Source: Acetobacter sp. (GTDB taxonomy: Bacteria > Pseudomonadota > Alphaproteobacteria > Acetobacterales > Acetobacteraceae). Taken from it: a stretch of DNA of 64,000 nt. Under the pieces are notes generated by a model that saw only the letters and a list, made by a program, of their open reading frames with translations, did no database searches and was not told the origin of the DNA. Of this stretch, positions 10,625 to 15,550 are shown one piece after another; the stretch's first letter is position 1; every line of letters begins with the position of its first letter. The stretch spans positions 372,001 through 436,000 of the forward strand of contig NZ_JAKVME010000002.1 in NCBI RefSeq assembly GCF_022483985.1, in the 5' to 3' direction. A program made the translations under genes and the position numbers.

Positions 10625-11359
10625 TCAGCCCGCTCGCATGAGCGAAAGACCTTGATTTTTGAGCCAGAGCTCCGCCCCATTGCGGGTCGGGCACATCTGA
10701 TCGACCAACGCCCAGAAAGCAGCGCTGTGATTGTGGTGCTTCATGTGCGCGAGCTCGTGCAGAATGACATAATCCTGCACAAAATGCGGCGCCATGATGA
10801 GACGCCAGTTCAGCATGATCCGTCCCGCCGTGCTGCAACTGCCCCAGCGGGAGGTTGCGTCACGCAGAGCGAATGTTTTGGGCGCAAAACCTGTTCGTCC
10901 GGCAAGGTCCTGTAGCCGCTGGCCCAGTTGTTTGTGTGCCAGTGTCTGAAGGAAATCGCGCACCCTGCGCCCAAGAAAGGCGACATCCCCGCTGACGTGC
11001 AGCTTGTGGTCCGCACCCTCCCAGGCTCCTCCACGACCGTTCGGTGTGTGATGGATTGTGTGCGCAACACCATTGATGGGAATAATGCTCCCCGCAGTAA
11101 AGCTGATCGCCGTCGGTTGCCGCTGCAATTGCCGGATGATCCAGTCGCGGTGCGCGTTGAGAAGCGACAGCCCGGTTTGCGGCGAAACACGGGGCGGCAA
11201 TGTCACAACCACACTGTCACCAGCGCGGGACAGGCGGAGGGACAGGCGCCGCGCGCGCGTTGAGCGTCGCCATGTGATCGGGAAAGGGCCGGAAGGAAGC
11301 AGGATGCTGTCCGGGAGCGTATCCTCGGATGAAGAGGGTCGGGGGACCCGAGGCTTCAT
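10625..11359 (-). CDS. YgjP-like (DUF45/WLM-type) metallopeptidase
   Basis: A 244-residue protein of the YgjP/DUF45 family. The zinc motif HELAH is at residues 201-205, with a third histidine ligand in NHSAAFW (about 211). The family signature RWGSCS is at 171-176. Members are SprT/WLM-like zinc proteins presumed to be peptidases; their substrates are largely unknown. The start ATG overlaps the stop of the preceding minus-strand gene in ATGA, so it is coupled to the YcgN-like gene. Confidence 0.88.
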   Translation of the reverse strand: MKPRVPRPSSSEDTLPDSILLPSGPFPITWRRSTRARRLSLRLSRAGDSVVVTLPPRVSPQTGLSLLNAHRDWIIRQLQRQPTAISFTAGSIIPINGVAHTIHHTPNGRGGAWEGADHKLHVSGDVAFLGRRVRDFLQTLAHKQLGQRLQDLAGRTGFAPKTFALRDATSRWGSCSTAGRIMLNWRLIMAPHFVQDYVILHELAHMKHHNHSAAFWALVDQMCPTRNGAELWLKNQGLSLMRAG

Positions 11360-11823
11360 TCGGCAGGCTCATCCTTTGGGTCGAGTGCGGGCCATTCGAC
11401 GACATAGTCTTCGAGATTGCCAGCCCTGCGCTCGCTGATACAGCGATCACCGGCAGAAATACCGGCCTCGCGGACGCTATCCGGATTGCCGGTCAGCAGC
11501 GGGTGCCAGTCGGGCAGAGGCAGACCATCCGACAGGCGCTTGTAAGCGCAGGTTGACGGGAGCCAGTCGATGGTTTCCAGCATGGGAGCCGTCAGTGTGA
11601 TGCAGTCCTGCACCTTGCGGTGACGACCGGCATAATCCGTGCAGCGACATGTGTGAGTGTCCAGCAGGCGACAGGCGACGTTCGTATAATAGAGGCTGCC
11701 GTCATCTTCATCGCGCAGCTTGTGCAGGCAGCAGCGTCCGCAGCCGTCGCAAAGAGATTCCCACTCTTCGGTGGTCATCTGCTCAAGGGATTTGGTTTCC
11801 CAGAAAGGAGTGTCGGTGGCCAT
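11356..11823 (-). CDS. YcgN family cysteine-cluster protein (UPF0260)
   Basis: A 155-residue protein with the family pattern CDGCGRCC near the N-terminus and further cysteines in NVACRLLDTHTCRCTDY, probably binding a metal or iron-sulfur cluster. The biochemical role of the family is not established. The open frame extends upstream into the permease gene, but MATDTPFWETKSLEQ is the usual N-terminus, and a GAGGG lies about 11 bases before it. It is followed by the YgjP-like gene with a four-base overlap. Confidence 0.85.
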   Translation of the reverse strand: MATDTPFWETKSLEQMTTEEWESLCDGCGRCCLHKLRDEDDGSLYYTNVACRLLDTHTCRCTDYAGRHRKVQDCITLTAPMLETIDWLPSTCAYKRLSDGLPLPDWHPLLTGNPDSVREAGISAGDRCISERRAGNLEDYVVEWPALDPKDEPAE

Positions 11824-11876
11824 GACGAAAGATACCCTCAACGCGCTTTTGGGGAAAGATGCGGGGCGATGGTCTT

Positions 11877-12347
11877 TCAGGGCCCAGCCAGCGGACGCCA
11901 GAGCAGGGCGAACGTCATGATGACCGCAAGCAGTGCTGTGGCGACGCTGCCCAGAATCATCCGGCGACGTAGCAGAGGCAGCCACAACAGCGACGCCCGG
12001 CTGGACCAGTTCGCACCAAGGGAGCGCGCGGTCCGAGTGACATCCGGCTGCGCGTTGACCAGAGCGCCCATCAGGGGAAGCGTCAGGGAGGGGCTGATGA
12101 GGAATCCCTGAATGATGGAAATGAGGGTGGGAATGGGTTCACGCGGAAAGAATTGCGACGACAGGACCAGAGAAGGCAGCAGAAAAGCAGCAAGGATATC
12201 CGGTATCCAGAAGGCGATCGTCAGAAAATACCAGATCTGGGAACGGGATGTCGCCAGACAGAGAGCCGCCATCAGTATCGCGGCGACAAAGGAGATGATC
12301 GCATGCGTCGCAACAACACCAGGAGGGAAGCCGGGAAGGGGAATCAT
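11877..12347 (-). CDS. short ABC-transporter permease (single, reduced)
   Basis: A 156-residue hydrophobic protein with four to five membrane segments. Its cytoplasmic EAA-like loop (GALVNAQPDVTRTARSLGAN, residues about 94-113) marks the inner-membrane subunit of a polyamine/iron-type ABC importer. Typical permeases of this class have 260-290 residues, so about the first 100 residues are missing. It follows the binding protein by 12 bases on the same strand, and the ATPase is upstream. No second permease is present. The whole system looks reduced; see the ATPase entry. Confidence 0.65.
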   Translation of the reverse strand: MIPLPGFPPGVVATHAIISFVAAILMAALCLATSRSQIWYFLTIAFWIPDILAAFLLPSLVLSSQFFPREPIPTLISIIQGFLISPSLTLPLMGALVNAQPDVTRTARSLGANWSSRASLLWLPLLRRRMILGSVATALLAVIMTFALLWRPLAGP

Positions 12348-12359
12348 CTTGCCATTCTC

Positions 12360-13388
12360 TCAGCGCTGGCTGAGCCATTGATCGAAGCGGGTTTTGATCG
12401 CAGGCAGGTTCCTGCGCCAGAAATCGACATTCAGAGGAAAGGCCGGCGGTAGCGTTCCGACACGCGGCTGGGCTGACTCCGGTGGCGCAATGATCAGACG
12501 TGCGTTGAGAGCATTCTGCTGCTCGGACGCGGCAGCCCACGTGGCCAGCCCCAGCGCTGACGTTACGTCTCTGCTGCCGTTGGTGGGAATGACCCAGTCG
12601 TAATTGACCCGCAGAAGGGGAAACCAGAGGTTCCTGAAGCGCGGTGTCGGCAGACCGGCGTTGGCGGCGGCGATCTCACTGGTTGGCGTGACGCTCATCA
12701 GCGCAGCGCCCTTGGTGAGGATATGCATGGCTTCGGCGGAGGTCGTCCACCAGACGATATAGGGCTTTAGCTGGGAGAGACGCCTGAAGGCCCGGTTGAG
12801 TCCGGCAGGCGTAGCCAGAGTGCTGTAAATGGCATCGGGAGAAACGCCATCAGCGAGAAGGGCGATTTCCAGAGTGATGCGGGGATCGGCGCGCAGCCCG
12901 CGCTTGCCGGGGTGTCGGGCGACATCCCAGAAGTCCCGCCAGCTCGGTGTATCGGCGAACCGAGAGCTGTCCCATGACAGCGCGTAGTCCAGCGAAAGCG
13001 CGGTCACACCGCAACGGGCCGGATCGGCATTGCTGCTCTCGGAGGCCGTCGCGGGAAAAGGCAGGAAGAGTCCCTCAGTACACCCTGTTTCGGCGTCATC
13101 ATCCTGTATGAGCAGGAGAGACCAGTTCTGTCTGCCAGAGCGGAGCAGGGTGTAGTTGGCGTCAGTCAGATCGGACCAGAGCGTGGTTCTGACCTTCTGA
13201 TGGGTCAGTTGGTAAAAGGGTTTCCAGACGACTTCGTTCAGTGTGGCGTTCAGGGAACCGCCCTGGGTCGCAACCACGAGAGGGCGCGTGCCGGTCCGCC
13301 TGACATGGGAGGCGGCATCCGATTTCTGAACAAGGCAGCAGGTCGAGAGCAGGACGGCCGACAGCCCGGCCAGCAGACGGCCAGGCAT
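12360..13388 (-). CDS. periplasmic solute-binding protein, spermidine/putrescine or iron type
   Basis: A 342-residue secreted protein. The ATG at 13388 gives MPGRLLAGLSAVLLSTCC, a signal sequence ending at about AAS or at a lipid cysteine. A TTG further upstream at 13436 would add 16 residues without benefit. The mature chain begins RPLVVATQGGSLNATLNEVVWKPF, the first strand-helix of cluster D/F binding proteins (PotD/AfuA-like), followed by the usual two-lobe pattern. The ligand cannot be deduced. It is the middle gene of a three-gene ATPase-binding protein-permease unit on the minus strand. Confidence 0.7.
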   Translation of the reverse strand: MPGRLLAGLSAVLLSTCCLVQKSDAASHVRRTGTRPLVVATQGGSLNATLNEVVWKPFYQLTHQKVRTTLWSDLTDANYTLLRSGRQNWSLLLIQDDDAETGCTEGLFLPFPATASESSNADPARCGVTALSLDYALSWDSSRFADTPSWRDFWDVARHPGKRGLRADPRITLEIALLADGVSPDAIYSTLATPAGLNRAFRRLSQLKPYIVWWTTSAEAMHILTKGAALMSVTPTSEIAAANAGLPTPRFRNLWFPLLRVNYDWVIPTNGSRDVTSALGLATWAAASEQQNALNARLIIAPPESAQPRVGTLPPAFPLNVDFWRRNLPAIKTRFDQWLSQR

Positions 13389-13472
13389 TTCATTGAGCCG
13401 GAACGACTCACCCTTGCTCGGTGAAGAAGAAAACAAGATACGCCCTTGGGTTAGCCTAGACTGGTCCGCAGA

Positions 13473-14588
13473 CTAGCCTTCTTTGTCCTGTGACGGGAAG
13501 ACCACCGCTGCCGAGGGGCCCCAGGCCAGCAGAACCGTCTGTCCAACGGCAGTGCCGGGTGGCAGCGAGCCTGCCGGTCGATGTACGACCATCTCCGTGC
13601 TGTCTGCGAGTCGCACGCGGAGAAGAAGCAGGTCTCCCACGTTGCGGATGTCACTCAGGGTCGCGGAAAGACTGCCTGCCTCGCCATCCGTATTGGCCGC
13701 TCCTCGTGGAAACATCAGCGCAATTTTGCCGGGGCGGATGCACAGCTCTACAAGATCGCCTTCCGCGACATCACCTTCGGCAAGCGCTTCCATCGTACCA
13801 CCACAGGCGAGACGCGTTTCCACAATGTCATCCTCGACCGTGAGGGCCAGCCCGGTGAGGATATTGGCGTCCGTCATGGCGGATGCGAGCCGTGCGGAAG
13901 CGGGCCGGTCAATCAGCTCTGCGGCTGAGCCGATCTGCAAAAGCGCGTCATCTGCAATGACGCCAATGCAGGTGGCGGCAGCCAGTGCGTCACTCCGGTC
14001 ACGGGTCAGGAGCAGAAGGCTGGTCTCGCGCGCCCTTTGCAGCCTGATCAGGCGGTGGTGGATATCCGTGCGGGTTTCACTGTCCAGCCCGGCGAAAATA
14101 TCCTCCAGAATGAGGGTGGCCGGGTCCGTGGCCAGCGCCCGGGCCAGTTGTGCCCGCAGTCGTTCAGAGGCTGTCAGGGCTGATGGTGGCGCGTCGGCCT
14201 GCTGTTCCAGCCCGAGAAGCGCGAGAAGCTGGGCAATCTTATGTGCCGCCTGATCCTGCGACAGTTTTCGCGCCCGTAGAGGAAAGGCCAGATTCTGCCG
14301 GATGGACAGATGTTCGAACAGAGGATCACGTGCGCCAACGACAGCAAGGCCGCGCTGGCCGACAGGGCGGTGTGAGATATCCTGATCCAGAAGCGTCAGA
14401 TGGCCGCTACCGACAGGTCGGTGCCCGGAGAGGATATCGGACAGCGCCCGCAGAGCCTGCCCCGAATCATTCAGCATCAGGAGCGCCAGACATTCTCCCG
14501 CATGCAGCGCAAAAGAAAAGGCAGGGCCATCTGGGGCAAGGCTGATAGTGTTCACTCTCAGTGTGGTTGAACGGGTGCATGATGTCAT
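13473..14588 (-). CDS. ABC ATPase with degenerate catalytic motifs (PotA/FbpC-like)
   Basis: About 371 residues with the fold of a polyamine/iron importer ATPase: nucleotide-binding domain, then a C-terminal TOBE-like domain (CIRPGKIALMFP, VVHRPAGSLPPGTAVGQTV). The catalytic signatures are lost. The P-loop position reads LMLNDSGQALRALSDILSG with no GKST lysine. The Q-loop is VGARDPLFEHLS. The LSGGQ position is LTASERLRAQLA. Walker B is LILEDIFAGLD with the DE order broken, and the switch histidine is arginine in LLTRDRSDAL. The reading frame is intact. It may be a non-hydrolysing regulatory or vestigial subunit. The start is uncertain: a TTG at 14606 is also possible. Confidence 0.7.
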   Translation of the reverse strand: MTSCTRSTTLRVNTISLAPDGPAFSFALHAGECLALLMLNDSGQALRALSDILSGHRPVGSGHLTLLDQDISHRPVGQRGLAVVGARDPLFEHLSIRQNLAFPLRARKLSQDQAAHKIAQLLALLGLEQQADAPPSALTASERLRAQLARALATDPATLILEDIFAGLDSETRTDIHHRLIRLQRARETSLLLLTRDRSDALAAATCIGVIADDALLQIGSAAELIDRPASARLASAMTDANILTGLALTVEDDIVETRLACGGTMEALAEGDVAEGDLVELCIRPGKIALMFPRGAANTDGEAGSLSATLSDIRNVGDLLLLRVRLADSTEMVVHRPAGSLPPGTAVGQTVLLAWGPSAAVVFPSQDKEG

Positions 14589-14692
14589 GCCGACAGGGAA
14601 CCACAACCTGACGGGAGAGTTAAGATGGGTGCTGGAGTCCGGGATAACCGGACAGAACTGACAGTCAGGTCAGCAAACAGGAGCGAGTGAAT

Positions 14693-14974
14693 ATGTCCGC
14701 AGAAAAGATCAGGAAACAGGCACAGGCAGCAGTGGACGAAGCCTCAACGACGGCGCGTGATGAACTGGAAGCGCTGAAGAGTCAGCTTGAACATTTTCTG
14801 AGCACCCATGTTGTTCCACCGCTTTCCGATGCGGCGAACTCGGCGGTTTCCAATGCGCGCGAGATTGCCGAGCATCAGAAGGCAAGCGTTGCGACCAATG
14901 TCAGCGCGAAGCCCTTCCTCTCCATCGCGATTTCTTTTGTCGTCGGATTTGTCGTCGGACGCCTGTCGCGTTAA
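14693..14974 (+). CDS. ElaB/YqjD-like (DUF883) membrane-anchored protein
   Basis: A 93-residue protein: a lysine/glutamate-rich amphipathic helix (about residues 1-65) followed by one C-terminal membrane segment ending in FVVGFVVGRLSR. This GxxxGR tail is the hallmark of the ElaB/YqjD/DUF883 family, which in E. coli binds ribosomes at the inner membrane in stationary phase. The ATG at 14693 has an AGGAG nine bases upstream; the GTG at 14687 is too close to it. The next gene is a holin-superfamily protein, a common pairing. Confidence 0.8.
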   Translation: MSAEKIRKQAQAAVDEASTTARDELEALKSQLEHFLSTHVVPPLSDAANSAVSNAREIAEHQKASVATNVSAKPFLSIAISFVVGFVVGRLSR

Positions 14975-15142
14975 TGTTTTGTCTCAGGAACCTGTCATCA
15001 GGGCGCCTGAGGCCAGATCAAGAGTCTACCTTCCTGTGAGGTGTTCTGCTCCTGCCTCGGTTGCTTTATGGATGAGGCAGGGGTCATAACAGGTCGCCGG
15101 TTCATCCTCGATGCCGGCTTATGTGAGGTAGACGGGGATCCA

Positions 15143-15550
15143 ATGCACTTTTTCGATGTCGGCAAATCCGCGGCTCAGGCGGAAGTTCAGCTTCTTCAGC
15201 AGAAAGCGATGCGGATCGGGCGTCAGGTTGCCCTGTTGCTGGTTGCGGCGCTCCTTGGCTTTTTCTCGCTGATTACCGGTCATGCGCTGCTCTGGGCCAT
15301 CTTCCGTTATGAATTCGGGTTGGGTCCGGTCCTTTCACCGGCTCTGGTCTTCTTTGCCGACATCTTTCTGGCTCTGGTGTTCGCGTTCTTCGGACGGCGT
15401 TCCTATCTCTATCCGGCTGAAGTGGAAGCGCATCTCAACCGGGATCGTCGCCTCAACGAACTGCGGCAGTCCCTCAACATGCTTTCGCTGGCCACTCTCT
15501 TAGCGGGGCCGCTGGGTCGTTATCTCGGATCGAAGCTGCGGCGGCGGTAA
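15143..15550 (+). CDS. phage-holin-superfamily (DUF1469-like) membrane protein
   Basis: A 135-residue protein. A charged N-terminal helix is followed by two membrane segments (about residues 32-54 and 64-84) and a basic C-terminal helix. This layout, next to a DUF883 gene, matches the Phage_holin_3_6 / YqjE family, a chromosomal family unrelated to lysis. The ATG at 15143 with GGGGA six bases upstream was chosen over the longer frame from 15041, whose added N-terminus is cysteine-rich and unlikely. A strong terminator follows 23 bases after the stop. Confidence 0.72.
   Translation: MHFFDVGKSAAQAEVQLLQQKAMRIGRQVALLLVAALLGFFSLITGHALLWAIFRYEFGLGPVLSPALVFFADIFLALVFAFFGRRSYLYPAEVEAHLNRDRRLNELRQSLNMLSLATLLAGPLGRYLGSKLRRR

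Follow-up and report, generated by a model that had tools for sequence, protein, structure and literature searches.

The window analyzed here is a 64,000-nucleotide stretch of the genome of an Acetobacter sp. whose nearest named relatives are A. sicerae and Acetobacter sp. UBA5411, with A. conturbans, A. musti, A. nitrogenifigens, A. oeni, and A. estunensis as the next. Within it, an open reading frame for an ABC-type subunit, referred to here as the pseudo-ATPase, runs from an ATG at 14588 to a stop at 13473-13475 and encodes 371 amino acids. The gene is on the minus strand, a detail missing from the initial annotation. Beside it are the genes for a periplasmic binding protein (SBP) of 358 amino acids and a half permease. 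The features, with the evidence for each in parentheses, are as follows.

10625..11359, minus strand: YgjP-like metallopeptidase, downstream; syntenic, a candidate functional link (Pfam, synteny)
11356..11985, minus strand: YcgN-family CxxCxxCC protein, downstream, overlapping the permease end; syntenic, a candidate functional link (Pfam, synteny)
11877..12347, minus strand: half permease of 156 amino acids, equivalent to PotC TM2-TM5, with EAA loop (profile, conservation, model)
11976..12035, minus strand: EAA/coupling loop RTARSLGANWSSRASLLWLP, the best-conserved stretch of the half permease (column conservation)
12360..13436, minus strand: periplasmic binding protein, SBP_bac_8, PotD/GABA-binding type, ligand residues lost (Pfam, profile)
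13473..14588, minus strand: pseudo-ATPase, a PotA/MalK-type ABC subunit (NBD plus TOBE) without a functional ATP-site motif (open reading frame, profiles, alignment, model)
13476..13865, minus strand: C-terminal TOBE/regulatory domain with family-specific invariants DD, C..P, RP, W, and FP (Pfam, column conservation)
13995..14009, minus strand: switch-histidine position, LTRDR, His to Arg, amino acids 194 to 198 (alignment)
14094..14114, minus strand: Walker B position, LILEDIF, with LLLDEP changed to LILEDI (D-E swapped to E-D), amino acids 159 to 165 (alignment)
14163..14177, minus strand: signature position, LTASE in place of LSGGQ, amino acids 138 to 142 (alignment)
14277..14327, minus strand: coupling-helix groove segment DPLFEHLSIRQNLAFPL, still conserved despite loss of the adjacent Q-loop Gln (column conservation)
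14448..14471, minus strand: Walker A position, NDSGQALR in place of GPSGSGKT, amino acids 40 to 47 (alignment)
14687..14974, plus strand: DUF883-like (YqjD-type) gene, a divergent locus marker (Pfam, synteny)
15041..15550, plus strand: Holin_3_6/YqjE-type membrane protein, a divergent locus marker (Pfam, synteny)

When called from its first start, the YcgN-like open reading frame (11356-11985) overlaps the permease gene (11877-12347). Its real start is probably an internal ATG, since homology starts only around amino acids 40 to 60.

The pseudo-ATPase matched ABC_tran (PF00005) weakly (38.2 bits; Pfam cut-off, 25), which places it in the family by descent, and its residues 282 to 364 matched TOBE_2 (PF08402), the CUT1/MalK-type TOBE domain, at 42 bits (Pfam cut-off, 21). 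The closest NCBIfam models were PhnT (TIGR03258) and PotA (TIGR01187). Both scores were far under the curated cut-offs (154.5 bits versus 499.15 and 134 bits versus 355.6, respectively), and the protein is a member of neither family. The AlphaFold2 model was a confident NBD plus TOBE fold (pLDDT, 89.9). Its top Foldseek match in the PDB, with a TM-score of 0.84, was PotA of the Escherichia coli PotABCD spermidine/putrescine importer (PDB 8y5f/8zx1), which shares the NBD plus TOBE layout. PotA was also the first PDB match of the pseudo-ATPase family profile, and the scores of the canonical orthologues reach PotA subfamily level. By descent and predicted fold, the pseudo-ATPase is a member of the ABC ATPase superfamily, of the PotA/MalK type. 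The earlier claim that the frame, the fold, and a C-terminal TOBE-like region persist was borne out by the intact frame, the model, and the TOBE_2 match.

Canonical PotA-type orthologues aligned with the pseudo-ATPase served as the motif reference. None of the five motifs of an ABC ATPase enzyme (PF00005) was present. In addition to the four replacements listed above, the Q-loop VFQ reads VGA, with the Gln replaced by Ala. This agrees with the initial annotation, in which the P-loop lysine, Q-loop Gln, LSGGQ, Walker B order, and switch His were all described as altered. The Walker A lysine was absent from every one of ~58 fully degenerate orthologues, and chance is therefore excluded as the source of the motif loss. 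As judged by alignment, the residues for ATP binding and hydrolysis are all lost; the sequence may be compatible with a noncanonical mode of ATP binding. In the PotA homodimer, each ATP is held by the Walker A and B motifs of one protomer and the LSGGQ of the other (PMC11414716). A dimer containing the pseudo-ATPase would lack Walker A at one site and the signature at the other, so that no composite ATP site would be complete. This would make ATP-driven alternating access through the pseudo-ATPase, and transport driven by it, very unlikely.

The initial annotation had also linked the gene to a binding protein and one short permease, and we found both: the SBP_bac_8 neighbor and the 156-residue permease with its EAA loop. 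Where a complete type I ABC importer has two full TMDs of 5 to 6 TM each with an EAA loop, this is the one permease of the locus. The half permease sequence alone had no Pfam match, while its family profile matched PotC at an E value of 2e-7. It is equivalent to PotC residues 54 to 193, the TM2-EAA-TM5 core. It has no counterpart of PotC TM1 or TM6 and so may be unable to assemble into the usual TMD dimer. Foldseek with the half permease model (pLDDT, 88) returned nothing below an E value of 0.01; the best-scoring matches were nearly all type I permeases, with probabilities up to 1.00.

By profile, the SBP belongs to the same family (PF13416) as its nearest solved relatives, the GABA/polyamine binding proteins (Pf622 and Atu4243; PDB 9d57/4eq7). 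The GABA site of Pf622 comprises W9, T13, F100, residue 102, W202, R205, D228, and Y264 (PMC12999171). The SBPs of canonical loci mostly retain the GABA-site residues, as do the PF13416 GABA/polyamine proteins. Unlike Pf622, those of degenerate loci have the W9, R205, and D228 equivalents replaced (Pf622 residues from PMC12999171). The NGR motif, equivalent to R205, was found in 11 of 15 canonical loci versus 0 of 62 degenerate loci, and SWGG, equivalent to W9, was found in 9 of 15 versus 1 of 62. The intact ligand site of a complete importer is therefore absent, with NGR gone in 62/62 degenerate loci. It is possible that the SBP of degenerate loci binds a changed ligand.

Orthologues at 35 to 87% identity, with the gene order preserved, were present in 35 genomes of the Acetobacter group. 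The Walker A lysine was missing in all 35, and the frame was intact in 33. With identity down to 35 to 40% among orthologues, the precise function may vary by lineage. In two draft Acetobacter genomes (L064 and L065), the pseudo-ATPase is frameshifted. A neighboring gene is split as well (hol in L064 and the SBP gene in L065), so these frameshifts are likely assembly errors. Three related Acetobacter genomes (L052, L054, and L055) share a TAA one codon ahead of the usual pseudo-ATPase end; we rejected this internal TAA as a disruption because of that position.

The orthologue alignment and dN/dS comparison proposed in the initial annotation were carried out. The same motif losses were seen in orthologues throughout Acetobacter and in the 17 genus-level groups described below, nearly all of them with intact frames. 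Over 16 pairs, NG86 dN/dS was 0.05 to 0.18 for the whole pseudo-ATPase, within the range of the neighboring genes, and 0.06 to 0.20 for the NBD half alone. Without selection, the observed dS predicts 10 to 19 stops between close pairs; there were none. The marks of a pseudogene, a disrupted frame and relaxed selection, were not found in the pseudo-ATPase. Substitution patterns thus show a gene held under purifying selection, and the dN/dS of the SBP gene indicated the same. All three importer parts have lost their classical function, yet all are under selection.

A family-wide survey consisting of a search with the binding protein and the gene contexts of 80 further loci located the fully degenerate ATPase in 17 block-type genus-level groups of Acetobacteraceae. 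A search of 187 genomes from other families of the same class yielded no fully degenerate relative; the best score was ≤221 bits, and the five best matches carried canonical motifs. A Streptomyces match (L155), from a profile search of genome contigs built on a 9-row alignment, was rejected as an orthologue, being an unrelated ABC protein (27% over 103 residues).

With the divergent DUF883/holin-like (yqjDE-like) pair as the locus marker, we defined four states of the locus. In state i, the ATPase at the marker locus is canonical (L115, L181, L186, and L191). State ii comprises ATPases that keep Walker A, the Q-loop, and Walker B with LSGGQ and His lost (L193), those that keep Walker A and B (L168 and L170), and those with Walker A only (L119 and L139). 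L194 has an intermediate copy similar to state ii, but no marker pair was seen there. State iii is the fully degenerate ATPase with the half permease and YcgN-YgjP. In state iv, the ATPase and permease are deleted, and the SBP gene is followed by mlaE/mlaF or by YcgN-YgjP; the gaps left (139 to 862 bp) are too short for an ATPase gene. In L171, L181, L186, and L191, the canonical PotA-type ATPase and SBP have no adjoining permease gene. The initial annotation had held that canonical orthologues together with disruptive mutations here would indicate simple decay. Canonical orthologues do exist in the same slot elsewhere, but this gene has no disruptive mutation.

We infer that the direction is from canonical to degenerate because regaining five motifs is improbable. 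Read in this direction, the series would have LSGGQ and the switch His lost early and Walker A last. The ATPase tree places the canonical sequences in a single supported clade (100/99), with the intermediates near its base; because the motif columns were included, this tree is biased toward such a grouping. On the tree of SBPs from syntenic loci, the canonical loci are interspersed with intermediate and ATPase-less ones, and the SBP tree shows several independent ATPase losses.

The SBP is the importer part retained longest, outliving the ATPase and permease in several lineages. The ATPase is thus dispensable in these lineages. In seven loci of small-genome relatives (L123, L130, L132, L134, L136, L192, and L195), falling in two clades of the SBP tree, the SBP gene is kept beside YcgN-YgjP, and the ATPase and half permease are lost. 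In another set (L113, L124-L126, L160-L162, L164-L166, L172, L173, and L184), the SBP gene lies shortly before mlaE, usually with mlaF, and its own ATPase and permease are absent. This adjacency in many Acetobacteraceae genera suggests a link to the Mla lipid pathway. From the same gene order we considered a role in mla lipid transport in the present genome and rejected it, as the best mlaE here is on another contig.

Conservation has shifted within the degenerate proteins. The Walker A columns, invariant in canonical orthologues, are less conserved in degenerate ones than 76% of columns, whereas the coupling groove stays above 69% of columns. The relative conservation of the TOBE domain moves from the 30th percentile in canonical orthologues to the 53rd in degenerate ones. 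In 55 of 56 YcgN-type loci, the degenerate ATPase is accompanied by the half permease, and in all 7 YcgN-type loci that lost the ATPase, both are absent. Because the groove and EAA loop are conserved and the permease and ATPase are co-retained, a retained ATPase-permease contact is favored.

We consider it probable that this locus encodes a conserved pseudo-importer whose non-hydrolytic ABC subunit would serve, on a membrane-anchored half permease, as a scaffold or regulator. From sequence and models, we infer the ATPase-permease complex, the scaffold or regulatory role, and the absence of transport. The pseudo-ATPase would dock on the EAA loop of the half permease via its preserved coupling groove, and the docked, dead NBD would form a fixed, non-switching cytoplasmic platform. 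The TOBE domain, facing the cytoplasm, would carry the present function. At the periplasmic face, the binding protein would be tied to this scaffold or regulator instead of an ATP-driven motor. The pseudo-importer, kept under strong purifying selection in acetic acid bacteria and related genera, descends from a polyamine/GABA-type nutrient importer. We give an even chance to a more general proposal, that a complete importer was converted gene by gene, as one unit, to a trans-envelope complex that is transport-dead, independent of ATP, and selected for a function other than transport, and that all stages survive in one family.

The initial annotation had offered a decaying importer as one option, which in its simplest form would be a pseudogene in progress from an importer that has become superfluous to the lineage. 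As decay would predict, each of the three importer parts is reduced, some lineages have dropped the ATPase and permease entirely, and frameshifted copies exist in two draft Acetobacter genomes. We nevertheless reject it and regard it as highly improbable, because the frames are intact (33/35 in the Acetobacter group), dN/dS is ~0.1 over the whole gene and the NBD half, and 17 block-type genus-level groups retain this degenerate form; the split neighbors suggest that both frameshifts are assembly errors. We give equally little credence to a half permease energized in trans by another canonical ABC ATPase with the dead subunit as regulatory partner in a mixed dimer. The genome encodes many MalK/PotA-type ATPases and the EAA loop is intact, but every ATP site of a mixed dimer would be incomplete, the dead subunit having neither Walker A nor signature, and the permease TM1 and TM6 and the SBP ligand site are gone.

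A stronger competitor, although still a doubtful one, makes the SBP the working component, in a new role linked to the envelope or to lipids, with the dead ATPase and half permease only anchoring or stabilizing it at the inner membrane. The SBP is kept after several independent deletions of the ATPase and permease, is followed by mlaE in 13 ATPase-less loci, and is under the same purifying selection. However, mla adjacency is absent in Acetobacter, with the best mlaE on another contig, and an ATPase that is only an anchor leaves the TOBE constraint unexplained. That constraint, with strong selection on TOBE-specific residues and the coupling groove and EAA loop kept, would fit a signal relay, by analogy to MalK-MalT without transport, in which ligand or envelope state passes from the SBP via the half permease to the TOBE domain and controls a cytoplasmic partner. 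SBPs of the same family act on receptors in other bacteria (PMC11113362), which adds to its appeal. We think such a relay unlikely given that the conserved block encodes no regulator or kinase, the known SBP ligand residues are gone, and the SBP persists without the ATPase. The initial annotation's other option was a non-hydrolytic system that has taken on a new role, for example signaling. Its non-hydrolytic nature and changed role are supported; signaling is possible but has no direct evidence.

In the scaffold or regulator that we favor, the pseudo-ATPase is a predicted pseudoenzyme inside an importer-derived complex. Unlike PotA, it lacks the five motifs and scores below the PotA and PhnT cut-offs; its permease is halved and its SBP ligand site lost. 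MalK has the same fold with a TOBE domain, and the MalK TOBE domain has regulatory partners. MalK, however, hydrolyzes ATP, and the pseudo-ATPase locus encodes no MalT-like partner. ABC domains with altered catalytic residues are found at the degenerate ATP sites of heterodimeric ABC exporters and in tandem sugar ATPases. Heterodimeric exporters with a degenerate site keep Walker A, still bind ATP, and pair with a consensus site, unlike the pseudo-ATPase, which is without both half-sites and has no consensus partner encoded. Kinases and proteases without catalytic activity are familiar cases. Our search of the open-access literature turned up no earlier description of this system or of a family-conserved importer-type ABC subunit without both half-sites.

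These results carry a warning for annotation, as genes labeled "ABC transporter ATP-binding protein" at these loci probably encode no transport ATPases. With canonical, Walker-A-only, motif-free, and deleted forms in one slot, the orthologue series allows the order in which the parts of an ABC motor are lost to be asked. The same series can be used to ask which interfaces persist once catalysis is gone and whether the architecture of an importer can be of use in the absence of energy coupling.
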